Virus record (IMG/VR): IMGVR_UViG_3300027985_001266
Span: 1 to 30,728 of that record
Origin: a virus
Reading direction: 5' to 3' (one strand)
Length of the DNA: 30,728 nt
Shown one piece after another: positions 19,858 through 27,719 of this stretch (within the stretch, counting starts at the first letter, position 1; each line of letters begins with the position of its first letter). The notes below the pieces were generated by a model. The model was not told the DNA's origin. It made no database searches and worked only from the letters and a program-made list of their open reading frames with translations. The translations under genes were made by a program, and so were the position numbers.

Positions 19858-20691
19858 TCAGCGAAAATGGTTGGCATACACATAACCTGAAATTATAGCT
19901 GGCCGTGCCCATTCTCTCTGCCAACGCATCCATTCACTGCTTCGTATCCCTTTCGTGTCTCGATAAAGCATGGCCATTGGCATAAACCCGGCGTCAATCG
20001 TTTCCAACATTCTCTGTCGTGCTGCATCAAATGTATCTTTTGGATATCCGCACAGAACATACGCTCTTAGCGTGTGACTCGTCGTTGTAAATCCGGCATC
20101 CAACAACATCCGCCCAGCTACACGAAGCGGATCAAGGTCGTCCGGAGTATCGTATGCAAAAAATATTTGTTTCGGGCGCAACTCCCGTAATGATTCAACG
20201 TGCCATGGTTTCAAACGGTTCGCCTCAAGTCCTCCGGTAAACTGCACTCTTCCATTAACTTTGTTTCGCTGCAACATGGAAAAAACGCTTTTGATGTGAT
20301 CATCTGAGCAAGCCAGTAAATTATCATCAAGGATATTCAACCCGTCGGTTATCGGAAGTTCCCGCAACGGCCCTTCACGCTTTGGCACACTGCAAAACCA
20401 GCAATTGTTAGGACAACCCCGGGAAGTGATAACGTATCCACATTTAACATACATGCCTGGGACAAACTCACCACCGGCTTCTCCCGTTGCCGGACCTCCG
20501 ATTCGTACCGGAGCAACACTCTCCCAAAATTTCGCCAGCTTTTCAGCCAACGGAAGATCCCAACTGAACGCCACCGAAACGTGTACTTCATCCGCTTCAT
20601 CAAACAGACCAGGACCGACTCCAATACGAACCAGATCATCATCCGGTGTTGCCGATGTCTTCCGTGGAAATACTCTAATAATTCTTTTCAT
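19858..20691 (-). CDS. radical SAM enzyme
   Basis: I set the start at ATG 20691 (MKRIIRVFPRKTSATPDDDL), giving 277 residues. A longer frame to 20838 would cross the glycyl-radical gene in another phase. The cluster motif RGCPNNCWFC (C93, C97, C100) is CX3CX2C, and downstream are DDNLLACSDDHIKSVFSML and FTGGLEANRL, which resemble the SAM-binding barrel of B12-domain-like radical SAM proteins. An N-terminal piece of about 90 residues with DEADEVHVSVAFSWDLPLAE precedes the cluster. Proteins of this style are seen in other phages but their reaction is unknown. The start overlaps the glycyl-radical gene by 17 bases. Confidence 0.88.
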   Translation of the reverse strand: MKRIIRVFPRKTSATPDDDLVRIGVGPGLFDEADEVHVSVAFSWDLPLAEKLAKFWESVAPVRIGGPATGEAGGEFVPGMYVKCGYVITSRGCPNNCWFCSVPKREGPLRELPITDGLNILDDNLLACSDDHIKSVFSMLQRNKVNGRVQFTGGLEANRLKPWHVESLRELRPKQIFFAYDTPDDLDPLRVAGRMLLDAGFTTTSHTLRAYVLCGYPKDTFDAARQRMLETIDAGFMPMAMLYRDTKGIRSSEWMRWQREWARPAIISGYVYANHFR

Positions 20692-20830
20692 GCCATTTAA
20701 CCAAGTCATACTCGACACGGTCTTTGAACTCTTGTTTTTTACCCTTGTTCCACTGCTGAACAGGCCTGAAAAATCCACAAACACGGGAATAAACTTCGGT
20801 CTTTTCGGTGCATTTTTGTCCATTAGGCAC
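20675..20830 (-). CDS. stand-alone glycyl-radical domain of anaerobic ribonucleotide reductase type
   Basis: GTG at 20830 starts one base after the lipoprotein stop (TGA C GTG). The 51-residue product contains TEVYSRVCGFFRPVQQWN followed by KGKKQEFKDR. This matches the C-terminal glycyl-radical loop of class III ribonucleotide reductases (NrdD), in which the Gly of the RVxG[YF] motif, here Gly19, carries the radical. The rest of NrdD is absent. The four-Cys zinc site that normally precedes the loop is not complete, with only Cys7 and Cys18 present. The gene is followed by a radical SAM enzyme, the enzyme class that generates glycyl radicals. It may be a spare domain for a host enzyme, by analogy with YfiD for pyruvate formate-lyase. 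That role is inference. Confidence 0.8.
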   Translation of the reverse strand: MPNGQKCTEKTEVYSRVCGFFRPVQQWNKGKKQEFKDRVEYDLVKWHEKNY

Positions 20831-20831
20831 G

Positions 20832-21056
20832 TCACCACCCGCGTCCTTTCCGGTTTTCGAAATAAAACAGCTCAATGGGCGATACCTCTTCGCCGCTTTT
20901 CTGCCATGCATAGCAGCCGAAACCAACCGTCCGGCACACGAGATCACCGATAACCACACCAACCGTTTTTTCGGAACAGACGACTCGTGGGATGTTCGAT
21001 GAAACCGAACATCCGACCACGGCCACAGCAAGAAAAATTGTGATGAGTTTTTTCAT
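20832..21056 (-). CDS. small lipoprotein
   Basis: The 74-residue product starts MKKLITIFLAVAVVGCSVSS, a short basic n-region, hydrophobic core and AVVGC lipobox with lipidated Cys16. The mature part has further cysteines (VVCSEK, LVCRTVGFGC). It begins in an ATGA overlap with the small terminase. Candidate roles include superinfection exclusion or a surface function, but nothing identifies one. It opens the cassette between the two terminase subunits. Confidence 0.75.
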   Translation of the reverse strand: MKKLITIFLAVAVVGCSVSSNIPRVVCSEKTVGVVIGDLVCRTVGFGCYAWQKSGEEVSPIELFYFENRKGRGW

Positions 21057-21980: not shown

Positions 21981-23072
21981 TCAATGTCTCATAGGCATAA
22001 TTACTTCAAGCCGTTCATTCCAGCACTTATGGTCAACCGGGAAAATAACCAGAGGAGTCTGGTTGTCCGAAAATTTAATGCACACTTCTCCGCCAAGAGC
22101 TACAAGCGCTTGGGACAAATAGCTCGCGTTAATGATAACCTTTAGCCCGGAATCTCCGTGATAAGGAACCTCATAGGTCGCGCGCCCTTTGTCGCTGAGA
22201 CCGGAAACCACCAGGACATCATCACGGCATTCCAGTGTTACGGATTTGTTCCTTTTGTCATCCACAACAACTATGCAGGCGGAAAGCGCAGAAATGAGCG
22301 CTTCCGAGTCGACGCAAAACCCTTTTTCATGCACGTCAATAATCCTCCGATATGCAGGATATGGGTGGTCTATAAGGCGCGATGAAATTTCCGCGGATGG
22401 TCCATCGAAACGAATGAGATTTTTATTCGGACGGGAAACACTTGACCAGCTATCAATTTTCGACAGCAGCACCATGGTTTTCTTTGAAATGATCACACCG
22501 TCTCGAAAAGCGTCGACGGAAGGACTTGAGATCGCCACCAATGACAACCGATGGCCATCGGCTGCAACACAGGTCAGGTTGTCGTTTTCCCTGGCAAAAT
22601 AGATTCCGCAAAGGTGATGTTTAGTCGCATCGTCACGAGACACGGCATGACCGACGGCGGCCTGAATAGCGCCGAACATGCCTCCGTCCCCAATGGCATA
22701 GATATCGGTTTCTGAATTTTCATCCATCGGGAATTCATCGGCCGGAAATACGGGAAGGTTGCATATAAACCCACCGCTGATAATAGATATTTCGTTCTCT
22801 TTATGATCGATCTCGATTTTTGGTCCGGGACTTAAGGAAACGGCGTGTTTGATTGTGTCCGCCTCGACGCAGAACGCCAGTCTCGAATCTCCTTCGGACG
22901 GAAATTCCGCCGATGCAAAAATTTCAAGATCGGTCCCGGTGACCGTTGAGCAACCAGGCGAAACCTCAATTTTTAACGCCGACAGAGCAGGCGAAATTTG
23001 TCGTTTATCAATAGCTCCGATAACTTTTCCGATAGCGTTCAATAGACTTTCTTTTTCTGCGATAAATACCAT
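21981..23072 (-). CDS. dnaN: DNA polymerase III beta sliding clamp (phage DnaN)
   Basis: The 363-residue product has the three-domain length of bacterial beta clamps and their key phrases: LSALKIEV early, NLPVFPADEFP, VAADGHRLSLVAISS in the second domain, DHPYPAYRRIID, and a final VIMPMRH, close to the usual IMPMR end. Clamps ring DNA and tether polymerases. Phages rarely encode the bacterial type, so this is notable. ATG 23072 has GAGGT upstream. No polymerase III gene is in the window, so it probably serves the host replisome. Confidence 0.93.
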   Translation of the reverse strand: MVFIAEKESLLNAIGKVIGAIDKRQISPALSALKIEVSPGCSTVTGTDLEIFASAEFPSEGDSRLAFCVEADTIKHAVSLSPGPKIEIDHKENEISIISGGFICNLPVFPADEFPMDENSETDIYAIGDGGMFGAIQAAVGHAVSRDDATKHHLCGIYFARENDNLTCVAADGHRLSLVAISSPSVDAFRDGVIISKKTMVLLSKIDSWSSVSRPNKNLIRFDGPSAEISSRLIDHPYPAYRRIIDVHEKGFCVDSEALISALSACIVVVDDKRNKSVTLECRDDVLVVSGLSDKGRATYEVPYHGDSGLKVIINASYLSQALVALGGEVCIKFSDNQTPLVIFPVDHKCWNERLEVIMPMRH

Positions 23073-23133: not shown

Positions 23134-23574
23134 TTATCCTGATGCTGTTCGCTGCTGTTCAGAAATAGGGATTGTTTCGGCTTCGATCTTTGCGTCGATA
23201 AGCGCTGTGCGTTCGGCCATGTCGCGGACGGCCCTGGGGGTCTTACCCAATATGGAGGAAATCTCCTCCGTGGAGCGTCCGAGTTCTTTCATGATCAGGA
23301 ATTTTACAAAATCGTCTGGGGACCAGTGGGTTCCGTAGAGAGGAGTACCGAGACGGGGATTGATGGTTTTTTTGCAGGACGGGCAGTAGAGACGATCGCC
23401 ACTTAACCAGGTGCTAACAAGGCCGACATCCACTAGCAAGGTTTTACCACAACAGGGAAAATTAAAACCGTTTTTATGATATTTATGAAATATCCAATAA
23501 ACGCTCGAATTAATATAAATGTTGGTCAACAGAGAAGAAATCATGTTGATATCCATAACTGACTGTTTTTTCAT
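23134..23574 (-). CDS. zinc-ribbon plus HTH protein, transposase-regulator-like
   Basis: The 146-residue protein has PCCG near residue 40 and CPSC at 64-67, a four-Cys zinc-binding pattern. It continues INPRLGTPLYGTHWSPDDFV and a helix-turn-helix candidate in RSTEEISSILGKTPRAVRDM. The arrangement resembles the zinc-ribbon/HTH N-terminus of IS1- or ISXO2-type transposases but lacks the catalytic domain. It probably acts as a DNA-binding regulator. The first ATG is used, though no good ribosome site is seen; ATG at residue 7 is possible. Confidence 0.65.
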   Translation of the reverse strand: MKKQSVMDINMISSLLTNIYINSSVYWIFHKYHKNGFNFPCCGKTLLVDVGLVSTWLSGDRLYCPSCKKTINPRLGTPLYGTHWSPDDFVKFLIMKELGRSTEEISSILGKTPRAVRDMAERTALIDAKIEAETIPISEQQRTASG

Positions 23575-24298: not shown

Positions 24299-24616
24299 CT
24301 CGCCACCTGTCCGGCTGTGTCCGGCTGTGTCCGGCTTAAAAAACCATCAACCGGACAGCTTTTCTTAAACGAAAACAAATACTTATTTTTGTCTGTCCGG
24401 CTTGTCCGGTTGAAAAACAATACCCAAGAGATATTTTGAAAAACGGAATTACACACGCGCGCGTATGTAAGGGATGATAAAATCGCCCGGACATCCCGGA
24501 CAGACTCATGCAATATACCGAAACAATTAAACAAACCTCTGTCCGGATGGTTAACAAATCGCCCGGACAGAGCCGGACAGCCCGGACAAAACCACACGGC
24601 ACGGGGATTGCTGAAC
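24299..24616. other. 318-base gene-free region, candidate replication origin or operator
   Basis: No coding frame is convincing here; frames that exist arise from the repeats and overlap the helicase. The segment contains A/T-rich stretches (near 24360-24390 and 24520-24540), an alternating purine-pyrimidine tract near 24450-24467, and the TGTCCGG array listed separately. It lies directly beside the SF3 helicase gene, where P4-type and many phage replicons keep the origin. Confidence 0.6.
24308..24588. repeat. array of twelve TGTCCGG motifs in both orientations
   Basis: TGTCCGG occurs at 24308, 24318, 24328, 24394, 24403 and 24540. Its reverse complement CCGGACA occurs at 24351, 24487, 24496, 24563, 24573 and 24582. 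The first three lie exactly ten bases apart, one helical turn. About 0.03 copies would be expected in 281 bases of random sequence counting both strands. Such clusters are typical of initiator or repressor binding arrays. Confidence 0.85.
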
Positions 24617-26134
24617 TTAATCATGGTCGGCCTCCGGTGGGGAGGGGAAAGGGGCGGGGAGGTCGAAACCATCCGGCTTTTCGTCCACCAGGCGGATCCC
24701 TCCATAAGCGTTTTCCCTCCGGCCATGTCCATCAGCCGGAAGTTTCTGATCGGACATTTCAGCCCCCTGATCAACCATCAACCGCTTAAACTCCACCCGA
24801 AAAAACGGCTCTCCAATCGGCATCAGATTATAAAACCGGCAGCGGTCCACATAATGCTTATAGACCGCCGCCTTACCCGCTTTACTCCCCTCATCGACAA
24901 CAACATGCTGATCAATGTAGTAGAGCACATTATTGTTGACTCGCTTGTAATCGTCCAACAGGCTGGTCATCCCTGAACTTTCCCTGAAACCCTCTTCCCT
25001 CAACGCTACCAACCCGGCCAACGCCCAGGCGAACACCCCTGGAAGCTCCTCAAGCAGCTTATCCTTAAGAAAAATATCCGCCTCAGCGCGCTTAACGAAC
25101 TGCCCGTCAAACCGCAGAATCATGATCTTCCGGAAAAAACCGTCCGAATTATCCAGCATTTTAGGCAGGCGATTAGTTGAGTAGACGAGCTTGCAGAAGG
25201 GTTCGAAATCGAAGGGAGTTTGATTTTTAAAAGACGCCGATATCGGATCTCCGGACACAATCGCCTTGATTTCCTGCGACTGCATGGCTTTCGATTCGAT
25301 CTCGGTCGACATATTGATCAGCTTATCGACCAACCGCGACAGGTAAAACTGATCCTCAAGCCGCCCCATGGGGATATGCGAGCAATTATCCTTCCCGACC
25401 ATCGCCCTCAGGATGTTCATGAACGTTGATTTCCCGTCGCCTCCAGGTCCGAACAGCAATAACATCTTTTCCCACCGCGTTTCACGGGTAAGGCAATATC
25501 CGGCAAACTTCTGCGCCTCGCGAATCGCCTCACAGTCCGCGATCCATTCGCCAAGACACCGTTTCCATGTCGGGCAATCCGGAACGTTTTGCGGATCAAA
25601 CGTGATCGGCAACATATAGGTTGCGTAATATCCCTTGTCGTGTCCGGTTAGCTCACCGGTCACCAGGTTAAACATGCCGTTTTCCAGGCAGATCAGGTCC
25701 GCTTGATCGTTCATCCGCCGCCCGACCGGCAAGGTCGATAGGTCGCGAATCATGTTGGCCACATCCGCCGCCCGCGAACTCGACCCATAGAGATCAAGCA
25801 TCACCAACGCCTTGGCCCGGATATGGCCGAGATCATATGCTTCCCAAAAACGCCCTTCCCATCGGTAAACCAGGCCCGTCTGCGGGTCATGAACGATGGA
25901 AATATCATCCATGATCGCCCGCGCCAAAAGCGCCGGAAGAAACGTTGTTCCGCGCTTACCACCAAAAAACCGCACTGACTTTTGGTTCGGTTCGGCTTTC
26001 TTCGGCTTTTCAACAGTCACCGCATGAGCCAGGAGGTCCGTCAGCTCGGAAACGCTCCGGCCGTGCTTGACGAACCAGTCGGTCAGGTCCAGGCCATGAT
26101 TAGCGGGATAAAATGATGGTGAAATAGCGGTCAA
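24617..26134 (-). CDS. P4/D5-type SF3 helicase, primase C-terminal part
   Basis: The 505-residue product has Walker A GPGGDGKST at 229-237, a Walker B-like NMSTEIE at 274-280, and motif C YSTNRLP around 319-324, all characteristic of superfamily 3 phage helicases. The first 40 residues (ANHGLDLTDWFVKHGRSVSE) match the post-Toprim piece that normally ends a phage primase. Start TTG at 26134 overlaps the methyltransferase stop as TTGA with AGAGGT upstream. It would unwind the origin, possibly that at 24299-24616, together with the Toprim protein. Confidence 0.9.
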   Translation of the reverse strand: MTAISPSFYPANHGLDLTDWFVKHGRSVSELTDLLAHAVTVEKPKKAEPNQKSVRFFGGKRGTTFLPALLARAIMDDISIVHDPQTGLVYRWEGRFWEAYDLGHIRAKALVMLDLYGSSSRAADVANMIRDLSTLPVGRRMNDQADLICLENGMFNLVTGELTGHDKGYYATYMLPITFDPQNVPDCPTWKRCLGEWIADCEAIREAQKFAGYCLTRETRWEKMLLLFGPGGDGKSTFMNILRAMVGKDNCSHIPMGRLEDQFYLSRLVDKLINMSTEIESKAMQSQEIKAIVSGDPISASFKNQTPFDFEPFCKLVYSTNRLPKMLDNSDGFFRKIMILRFDGQFVKRAEADIFLKDKLLEELPGVFAWALAGLVALREEGFRESSGMTSLLDDYKRVNNNVLYYIDQHVVVDEGSKAGKAAVYKHYVDRCRFYNLMPIGEPFFRVEFKRLMVDQGAEMSDQKLPADGHGRRENAYGGIRLVDEKPDGFDLPAPFPSPPEADHD

Positions 26135-26733
26135 AACAAAACCTCTTGAGCCATTCTTTTGGCGGCTATTTCACAATATTTCTCTTCAATTTCAATCCCG
26201 ATGGCTTTACGGCCAAGGTCTTTGGCGGCGCGCAGCGTTGTTCCTGAACCCATAAACGGGTCGATAATAGAGTGTGCCGAGTTATATTGCTGTAAACACC
26301 AAGACATCAAAGGAAGTGGTTTTGCTGTTGGATGTCCAGTATCTTCTCGGTTATTATGCCCAGTCCACGCCCTTGCCGGTCGGTCGGTTGTTGTCCATGC
26401 AATCTCAAACGCTGCCATAGTCGGTACAGCATTGGTCTTTATCCATGCAAGAAGTCCTCGACATGGAGGAAGGTTGTAATAATTACCACCCCAGATAACA
26501 CACTCGTTTCCGCACGAAAGAACCAAAGAAAGCAGGCTTTCATCGATCGCGATGTCCCATCTTTTGGCATCTTTGTATTTATCTTTCGATCCCCACGTAC
26601 CACCTTGCCATCTTTTGCTCATACCATACGGAGGATCGGTCAAAACAAGATCAACCATCGGCAACGTCGGTAAAATCTCCCGGCAATCTCCGTGGTAAAT
26701 CGTTACGTGATTGTCCTGGTAATAGGGTTTCAT
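26131..26733 (-). CDS. DNA methyltransferase (DPPY-class, N6-adenine or N4-cytosine)
   Basis: From ATG 26733, which overlaps the primase stop as ATGA, the protein has 200 residues. DLVLTDPPYGM near 28-38 is catalytic motif IV, HPTAKPLPLM lies near 134, and DPFMGSGTT at 158-166 binds SAM. Motif IV before motif I is the beta-class order. No restriction enzyme is next to it, so it may protect phage DNA or regulate packaging or expression. It is inserted between the Toprim primase and helicase genes. Confidence 0.88.
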   Translation of the reverse strand: MKPYYQDNHVTIYHGDCREILPTLPMVDLVLTDPPYGMSKRWQGGTWGSKDKYKDAKRWDIAIDESLLSLVLSCGNECVIWGGNYYNLPPCRGLLAWIKTNAVPTMAAFEIAWTTTDRPARAWTGHNNREDTGHPTAKPLPLMSWCLQQYNSAHSIIDPFMGSGTTLRAAKDLGRKAIGIEIEEKYCEIAAKRMAQEVLF

Positions 26734-27719
26734 GCCGCCATAATCTCCGGCCATTGAATCACCCTTACCGACTTCGCACACTTCGCTATCGACACCGCCG
26801 CCTGGTTCGCTCCATCCCATCCCGCCTGGTCGGCGTCGTAGGCAATCACCACATCACGGCCGGCCATGGCCGCGCTGAACTCATCGCGCCAGGTCCCGCA
26901 ACCAGCCGTTTGAGTGCAGGCGTTCAGGCCGTTGGATAAGGCACAGATCGTGTCCGGCTCACCCTCGCACAGCCACAGCAGGCCGTCACGTTTCCATTGC
27001 TTCGGCGCCGGAAACAGCCGCGCCCGACCATATTCCAGCGGCTCCACGCCGCAAACAGAACACGCGCGCTTGCGCTTATCCTTCGACCACGCGCCGCCAC
27101 AGACGTGACAAACCCGGTCCCACCAGTTGACCATTTTGAAACGCTCCGCCCCTGGCTGATACAGGCGCACATTGCAGAGCCGGCCATCTTCGTCGCGGAC
27201 CGGAATCGCGATCTTTTTAACGCCGCGACCCGCGTCAAATTCCCGCAGATCCAGCGAATCAATGATTTCCTTGATCCAACCCCTCTGGCGCCTTAATTCC
27301 CTGATGCGTTCCACCGGGAGGGGAGGGAGGGCCGCAAACAGCGCCTCATCCACAAACACATCAACCGGTGGGGCTGTCGTCTTCATCGGCTGACGTTGTT
27401 CATGCAATTTCGGCGCGTTCATCGTATCCCCAACAAATTCCCGCTTAAACTCCAGAAAGCCATCACCGTGGCTGTCAAGGTTGTTGACCTCGCACCAGAG
27501 CTTAACCAGATCTCCGCCCGCGCCGCATGACCGGCACTTGTACCAGTCTTCTTCGTAGTGATAGACAAACGACGCCGAACGATCACCATGAATGGGACAC
27601 TGGCCATGCAATTTATGACGGTACTCTTTCTCGACCGTAAACAGCATCTCGGCAATCTCCCGGCAACGGTCCGGGCCAAGTTCGTCAATCGCGTAGCCCA
27701 TTAATAAATACCAAGCCAT
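26730..27719 (-). CDS. CHC2/Toprim DNA primase
   Basis: The 329-residue protein has a CHC2 zinc domain: CPIHGDRSASF at 41-51, then YKCRSCGAGGDLVKLW at 60-75 (C41, H44, C62, C65). A second four-Cys zinc site lies in CHVCGGAWSKDKRKRACSVC. A C-terminal Toprim domain has LWLCEGEPDTICAL and DVVIAYDADQAGWDGA. It synthesises RNA primers. The frame ends at VRVIQWPEIMAA, just where the fused family continues into a helicase. ATG 27719 with GGAAG upstream is used; ATG 27701 in TAATG overlap is also good. Confidence 0.88.
   Translation of the reverse strand: MAWYLLMGYAIDELGPDRCREIAEMLFTVEKEYRHKLHGQCPIHGDRSASFVYHYEEDWYKCRSCGAGGDLVKLWCEVNNLDSHGDGFLEFKREFVGDTMNAPKLHEQRQPMKTTAPPVDVFVDEALFAALPPLPVERIRELRRQRGWIKEIIDSLDLREFDAGRGVKKIAIPVRDEDGRLCNVRLYQPGAERFKMVNWWDRVCHVCGGAWSKDKRKRACSVCGVEPLEYGRARLFPAPKQWKRDGLLWLCEGEPDTICALSNGLNACTQTAGCGTWRDEFSAAMAGRDVVIAYDADQAGWDGANQAAVSIAKCAKSVRVIQWPEIMAA

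Follow-up and report, generated by a model that had tools for sequence, protein, structure and literature searches.

A mirror-image iteron array adjoining a D5/SF3-type helicase gene as a probable replication origin of a tailed phage

Introduction

The family of D5-type helicases includes SaPI Rep and the primase-helicases of poxviruses and asfarviruses. To our knowledge, the way in which helicases of this type are loaded on duplex DNA is poorly understood.

The origins of Gram-negative PICIs lie 3' of rep, where an AT-rich region is flanked by two sets of iterons; replication of a plasmid in E. coli from one such PICI origin has been demonstrated (PMC6092414). In the record of phage Sfi21 (NC_000872; L068 in our set), a 302-bp 'origin of replication' is annotated directly 3' of a gene for a D5-type primase. 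The SCCmec protein Cch2 is a helicase with D5_N and Primase_Cterm domains, and its C-terminal domain binds AAGTG direct repeats downstream of the gene. For the archaeal plasmid pRN1, the minimal replicon is reported to include 166 bp of downstream sequence together with the replication operon (PMC4234260).

Here we analysed a viral DNA of 30,728 nucleotides (IMG/VR record IMGVR_UViG_3300027985_001266), which we call the window. An earlier note, made from the letters of the window, had drawn attention to a cluster of TGTCCGG motifs beside a helicase gene and had read it as the prime candidate for an iteron-like origin, with an operator array as the alternative.

Results and discussion

Twelve sites in mirror order

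The motif TGTCCGG occurs twelve times within positions 24308-24588 (281 bp), six times on each strand, and every copy is an exact match; the count and the coordinates given earlier were thus correct. The chance expectation of 0.03 given at that time was also of the right order, since our shuffles gave about 0.05 per 281 bp. When the 7-mers of the window were ranked by clustering, TGTCCGG came first with 12 copies, and the next non-overlapping motif had 5. The earlier note had proposed the density of the motif over the whole sequence as a check. In the window we counted 26 copies versus 5.0 expected from dinucleotide-preserving shuffles (sd 2.2, maximum 11), and the only further small cluster (510, 539 and 571; span 510-577) lies inside a 59-aa ORF (458-637).

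On one side of the array the helicase gene (24617-26134, minus strand) ends, and on the other a tail-completion gene starts (24298). The array occupies the 318-bp gap between them, and its first site is 29 bp past the helicase stop. The description of this segment as gene-free holds in substance, because the overlapping frames are closed in relatives. An 88-aa ORF that overlaps the array was ruled out as a gene on the same ground, no frame remaining open in the relatives.

The twelve sites form two arms of six. In the distal arm, an outer triplet on the plus strand (24308-24334) has its copies at 24308, 24318 and 24328, that is, exactly 10 bp apart, as the earlier note had stated for three copies. 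It is followed by a single inverted site on the minus strand (24351-24357), 23 bp from the triplet, and by an inner pair on the plus strand with a pitch of 9 bp (24394-24409). The helicase-proximal arm begins with an inner pair on the minus strand, again at 9-bp pitch (24487-24502), and continues with a single inverted site on the plus strand (24540-24546) and an outer triplet on the minus strand at 9-10-bp pitch (24563-24588). The order of orientations is therefore three plus, one minus and two plus, then two minus, one plus and three minus, which is a perfect mirror. Read from its outer end, each arm has a triplet with sites 9-10 bp apart; the inverted single follows after 23 bp, and after a further 43-44 bp comes the pair, with a spacing of 9 bp. 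When the positions of two mirrored sites were added, the result was 48896 or 48897 for every one of the six pairs, meaning that the two arms agree to 1 bp. A mirror match as good as this one arose with a frequency of about 6.5e-5 when gaps and orientations were shuffled, and in 0 of 200,000 random placements.

Between the two arms, the spacer holds the A/T-rich stretches that had been noticed before, and in addition a CTTGGG(A/T) element (24422-24428, minus strand) and a run of 20 alternating purines and pyrimidines, TACACACGCGCGCGTATGTA (24450-24469), which is CG-rich and Z-DNA-prone. The CTTGGG(A/T) element lies between this run and the distal inner pair, and the alignment of the TGTCCGG clade shows it to be conserved. 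The mirror order, the alternating tract and the conservation of the array in related phages had all been overlooked in the earlier note.

The adjoining helicase

The product of the gene at 24617-26134 matched Pfam D5_N (E 6e-15), TIGR01613 (E 1e-56; P4-family primase C-terminus) and phage DNA primase PHROGs. Its closest solved relative by sequence was SaPI5 Rep (7ola; E 3e-20), and SaPI5 Rep was again the top structural match of its AlphaFold2 model (pLDDT 82; Foldseek E 7e-23; VIA Z 26).

In the model, residues 411-482 (24689-24904, minus strand) form a strand-helix-helix-strand-strand unit that resembles a winged helix. By analogy with Cch2 and SaPI Rep, and from the secondary structure of the model, we propose that this C-terminal domain would bind the iterons. 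Covariation was also considered as a guide to the binding domain, and no single helicase domain stood out; the C-terminal domain tracked the iterons no better than others. Since two relatives, L051 and L065, retain TGTCCGG with helicases only 41-43% identical to this one, and since no domain tracks the iterons, covariation does not point to the binding domain.

Comparison with described origins

The array shares several characteristics with the rep-ori regions of SaPIs and PICIs (SaPI5 Rep, SaPIbov1, EcCICFT073). The known or, here, proposed initiator is a D5-family or related helicase, the known or proposed origin lies directly 3' of the initiator gene, and two iteron sets, whose sequence is specific to the element, flank a central spacer. 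There are also clear differences. The mirror is a strict six plus six here, the spacer contains a GC-rich alternating tract, and the primase is a separate protein of the DnaG type. The centre is AT-rich in the PICIs and in Sfi21, whereas here it is not simply AT-rich but combines A/T-rich stretches with the CG-rich tract. Moreover, unlike SaPIs and PICIs, the array belongs to an autonomous tailed phage. The window encodes both the large and the small terminase subunit, a portal, a prohead protease, a major head protein and a tape measure; with these genes of its own, the element is not a PICI in the sense of a helper-dependent satellite.

The resemblance to Sfi21 extends to the layout. The annotated Sfi21 origin and the segment analysed here are both noncoding, about 300 bp long and located 3' of genes for related D5-type proteins. 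The Sfi21 sites run from 34 to 57 and from 57 to 101, with a pair at 101/109, and are mirrored at 185/193 and 239. That is, an inverted single and a close pair are followed by a mirrored pair and single, and the distances are 23, 44 and 8 bp. The Sfi21 iteron is different (GTAAC), its outer sites are less regular, and its centre consists of A and T alone and lacks a CG-alternating tract. Cch2 shares the type of helicase and the downstream binding sites, but its repeats form no two-arm array. The plasmid pRN1 is not a phage, and its likeness to the array lies in the downstream sequence of the minimal replicon.

The layout in related phages

We found the same layout directly 3' of a homologous helicase gene in about 25 related phage contigs. 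With the helicase as the query, 11 loci were retrieved from IMG/VR, and then 30 with an alignment, the two sets overlapping. When we searched for the array first, using a DNA pattern that described only the inner pairs, 21 contigs were obtained; the helicase gene adjoined the array in 20 of them, and in the remaining one the array lay at the end of the contig. The layout was also recovered by a procedure that presupposed no motif. These relatives share descent and are not independent samples.

Where the helicases are 37-45% identical, the layout is usually kept and the iteron is usually changed. The iterons of such diverged relatives are TGTAGTAGAT in L030, TGTCGGAGAT in L031, TGGTCAGGG in L032 and L037, TGGTCAAGG in L034, GGTCCGGGT in L033, GTGTCCAGGTA in L039 and ATGGTCA in L040. 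More distant lineages (L033, L034, L038, L039, L040, L043 and L013) show only part of the layout or a less regular form of it, and little or none of it was seen 3' of the helicase gene in L041, L042 and L044, whose helicases are about 25% identical. Many D5 helicase genes of Streptomyces, Vibrio, Klebsiella, Alteromonas and Enterococcus Efquatrovirus phages lack an array 3' of the gene, so that the array and the helicase family are not inseparable. Among cultured phages no close relative was found, all being below 60% identity, and in the bacterial genomes searched only a distant Ureibacillus locus matched.

One locus, L025, carries 15 iterons instead of 12, because a block of one single and one pair has been duplicated in tandem (75 bp); the region concerned lies at about +84 to +211 relative to the stop of the helicase gene. 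In another, L043, the helicase gene is followed on its 3' side by TGGACAGA iterons and a long CG-alternating run, even though the identity of the helicase is as low as about 24%.

The relatives also bear on the proposal that the array is an operator, in which a phage regulator would bind the twelve sites and control either the downstream genes (tail-completion, 24298 onward) or the replication operon. The array does lie between two co-directional genes and upstream of the start of the next one, and the regulator suggested earlier (23134-23574) is encoded close to the array, with weak relatives in many of the loci. This protein was not found in L047, L051 and L065, all of which have TGTCCGG arrays, and it is thereby ruled out as the universal partner of the array. 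In 10 relatives (34-47 kb) each record has the tandem pair at a single locus, in contrast to the scattered sites of a repressor operator or stoperator, and never has the reversed control pattern. In addition, the position of the array follows the 3' end of the helicase gene while the gene on the far side changes between relatives, and an operator would not be expected to span 280 bp as a two-arm mirror around a centre of variable length. We therefore consider the operator function, which the earlier note had kept as its alternative, to be very improbable.

Even less credit can be given to a structural RNA or cruciform, such as a terminator or processing site, whose repeats would be kept for pairing between the arms. 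Taken alone, one strand of the segment gives a good fold (z = -6.5), but this is because the arms are complementary at the iterons, and mirrored iterons give a strong fold automatically. The complementarity is found mainly in the iterons, the spacers between them are poorly conserved, the length of the centre varies, and an Rfam search of the segment gave no match. A partition centromere or maintenance site bound by a ParB-like protein, which can also carry iteron arrays with a pitch of about one turn, is likewise extremely improbable, for the neighbours are genes for helicase, primase, beta clamp, methyltransferase and packaging, and family scans of the neighbouring genes gave no ParA or ParB match.

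Taken together, we think that the segment is very probably the replication origin of the phage, cognate to the adjoining D5/SF3 helicase, and most likely the main one of a record whose completeness is uncertain. The iteron-origin reading of the earlier note is strongly supported by the layout that is kept 3' of homologous helicase genes while the iterons change, by the match to SaPI5 Rep and by the annotated origin of Sfi21. Its proposed GC-skew check did not add to this; no change of sign was seen at 24.4 kb, and the contig is a one-strand fragment. The array is best read as the same kind of iteron origin as those of SaPIs, PICIs and Sfi21, but one whose mirror geometry is stricter and whose alternating tract is conserved.

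Spacing of the arms

We tabulated the spacing in 16 arrays, in which the sites were sorted by hand into the six-plus-six layout; some sites have 1-2 mismatches, and one L032 site was omitted. In each of the 16, both arms have the inner pair at a pitch of 9 bp. The distance from single to pair was 41-45 bp, and the pitch of the triplet was 9-11 bp. The distance from triplet to single fell into two classes, 12-13 bp and 20-24 bp, which are about one helical turn apart, and the two arms of the same origin belong to unlike classes in L024, L051 and L065. This suggests helical phasing. The length of the centre varied from 81 to 110 bp. That the arms are rigid while the centre varies suggests that two nucleoprotein assemblies form separately, and six sites per arm suggest, in our inference, one helicase hexamer per arm.

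The alternating tract

The tract at 24450-24469 is the longest purine-pyrimidine alternation of the window (20 nt), the next longest being 13. The distance from the start of the second iteron in the helicase-proximal inner pair to the start of the tract is 24 bp, and about 24 bp is usual in the relatives too. The corresponding tract is the longest or joint-longest alternation of its locus in nearly every relative, also where the iteron is a different one; the exception is the Firmicutes locus L013.

To see what is conserved, we compared substitutions in the alignment of the TGTCCGG clade; the test was run on one clade, as naive anchoring of all lineages gave register shifts. Transitions made up 82% of the differences within the tract, versus 26-38% in the flanks, and 83% when the two clade members carrying tract indels were left out. 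This excess of transitions indicates that the alternation is kept and not the sequence. Conserved alternation points to a possible role of DNA shape, for example Z-DNA or flexible YR steps, and the alignment itself could add part of the effect.

We speculate that a Z-DNA-prone tract may aid opening or store unwinding. A more specific proposal, which we offer tentatively and would not call probable, is that the tract is a Z-DNA-forming switch about 24 bp from one inner pair, conserved as alternation across phages with diverged iterons, which breaks the mirror symmetry and sets the start or direction of unwinding. If this is true, selection would have acted on Z-DNA potential at an origin, which would be unusual. 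Iteron origins of the SaPI/PICI/Sfi21 kind are already known; the conserved alternating tract appears to be new, as we found no earlier description of one at such an origin in the open-access literature.

A possible course of initiation

By analogy with the studied relatives, the segment would act as an origin that this helicase binds through its C-terminus, one hexamer to an arm. With its triplet, inverted single and pair, each arm (about 100 bp) would offer six iterons to the winged-helix-like C-terminal domain, and two hexamers would be assembled head to head across the spacer of 81-110 bp. As the two hexamers strain the spacer, the tract may act by flipping to the Z form or through its flexible YR steps. 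The spacer would then be opened and primed by the DnaG-type primase of the phage.

A natural series of origins in which the geometry is constant and the iterons differ is a direct handle on the loading of D5-type helicases. The differing iterons make specificity testable by swaps between origins, and the six sites per arm bear on the number of hexamers.

Neighbouring genes and further loci

The DnaG-like primase (26730-27719, minus strand) has a CHC2 zinc ribbon and a Toprim domain, and its gene is conserved upstream of the helicase gene in nearly all relatives. Between the two genes lies an N6/N4 DNA methyltransferase gene (26131-26820, minus strand), which is mostly absent from the relatives. 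A DnaN-like sliding clamp (21981-23072, minus strand; TIGR00663, E 4.5e-49) is encoded near the origin in most relatives, and a Radical-SAM-like protein (phrog_9298; 19858-20838, minus strand) is encoded between the small and large terminase genes. Finally, the Streptococcus satellite phage Javan743 (L074) has TAGGTTA iterons 3' of its primase gene in an arrangement that is similar by eye, and the longest alternating run of that locus (ATATATATACGTGT) sits in the spacer.
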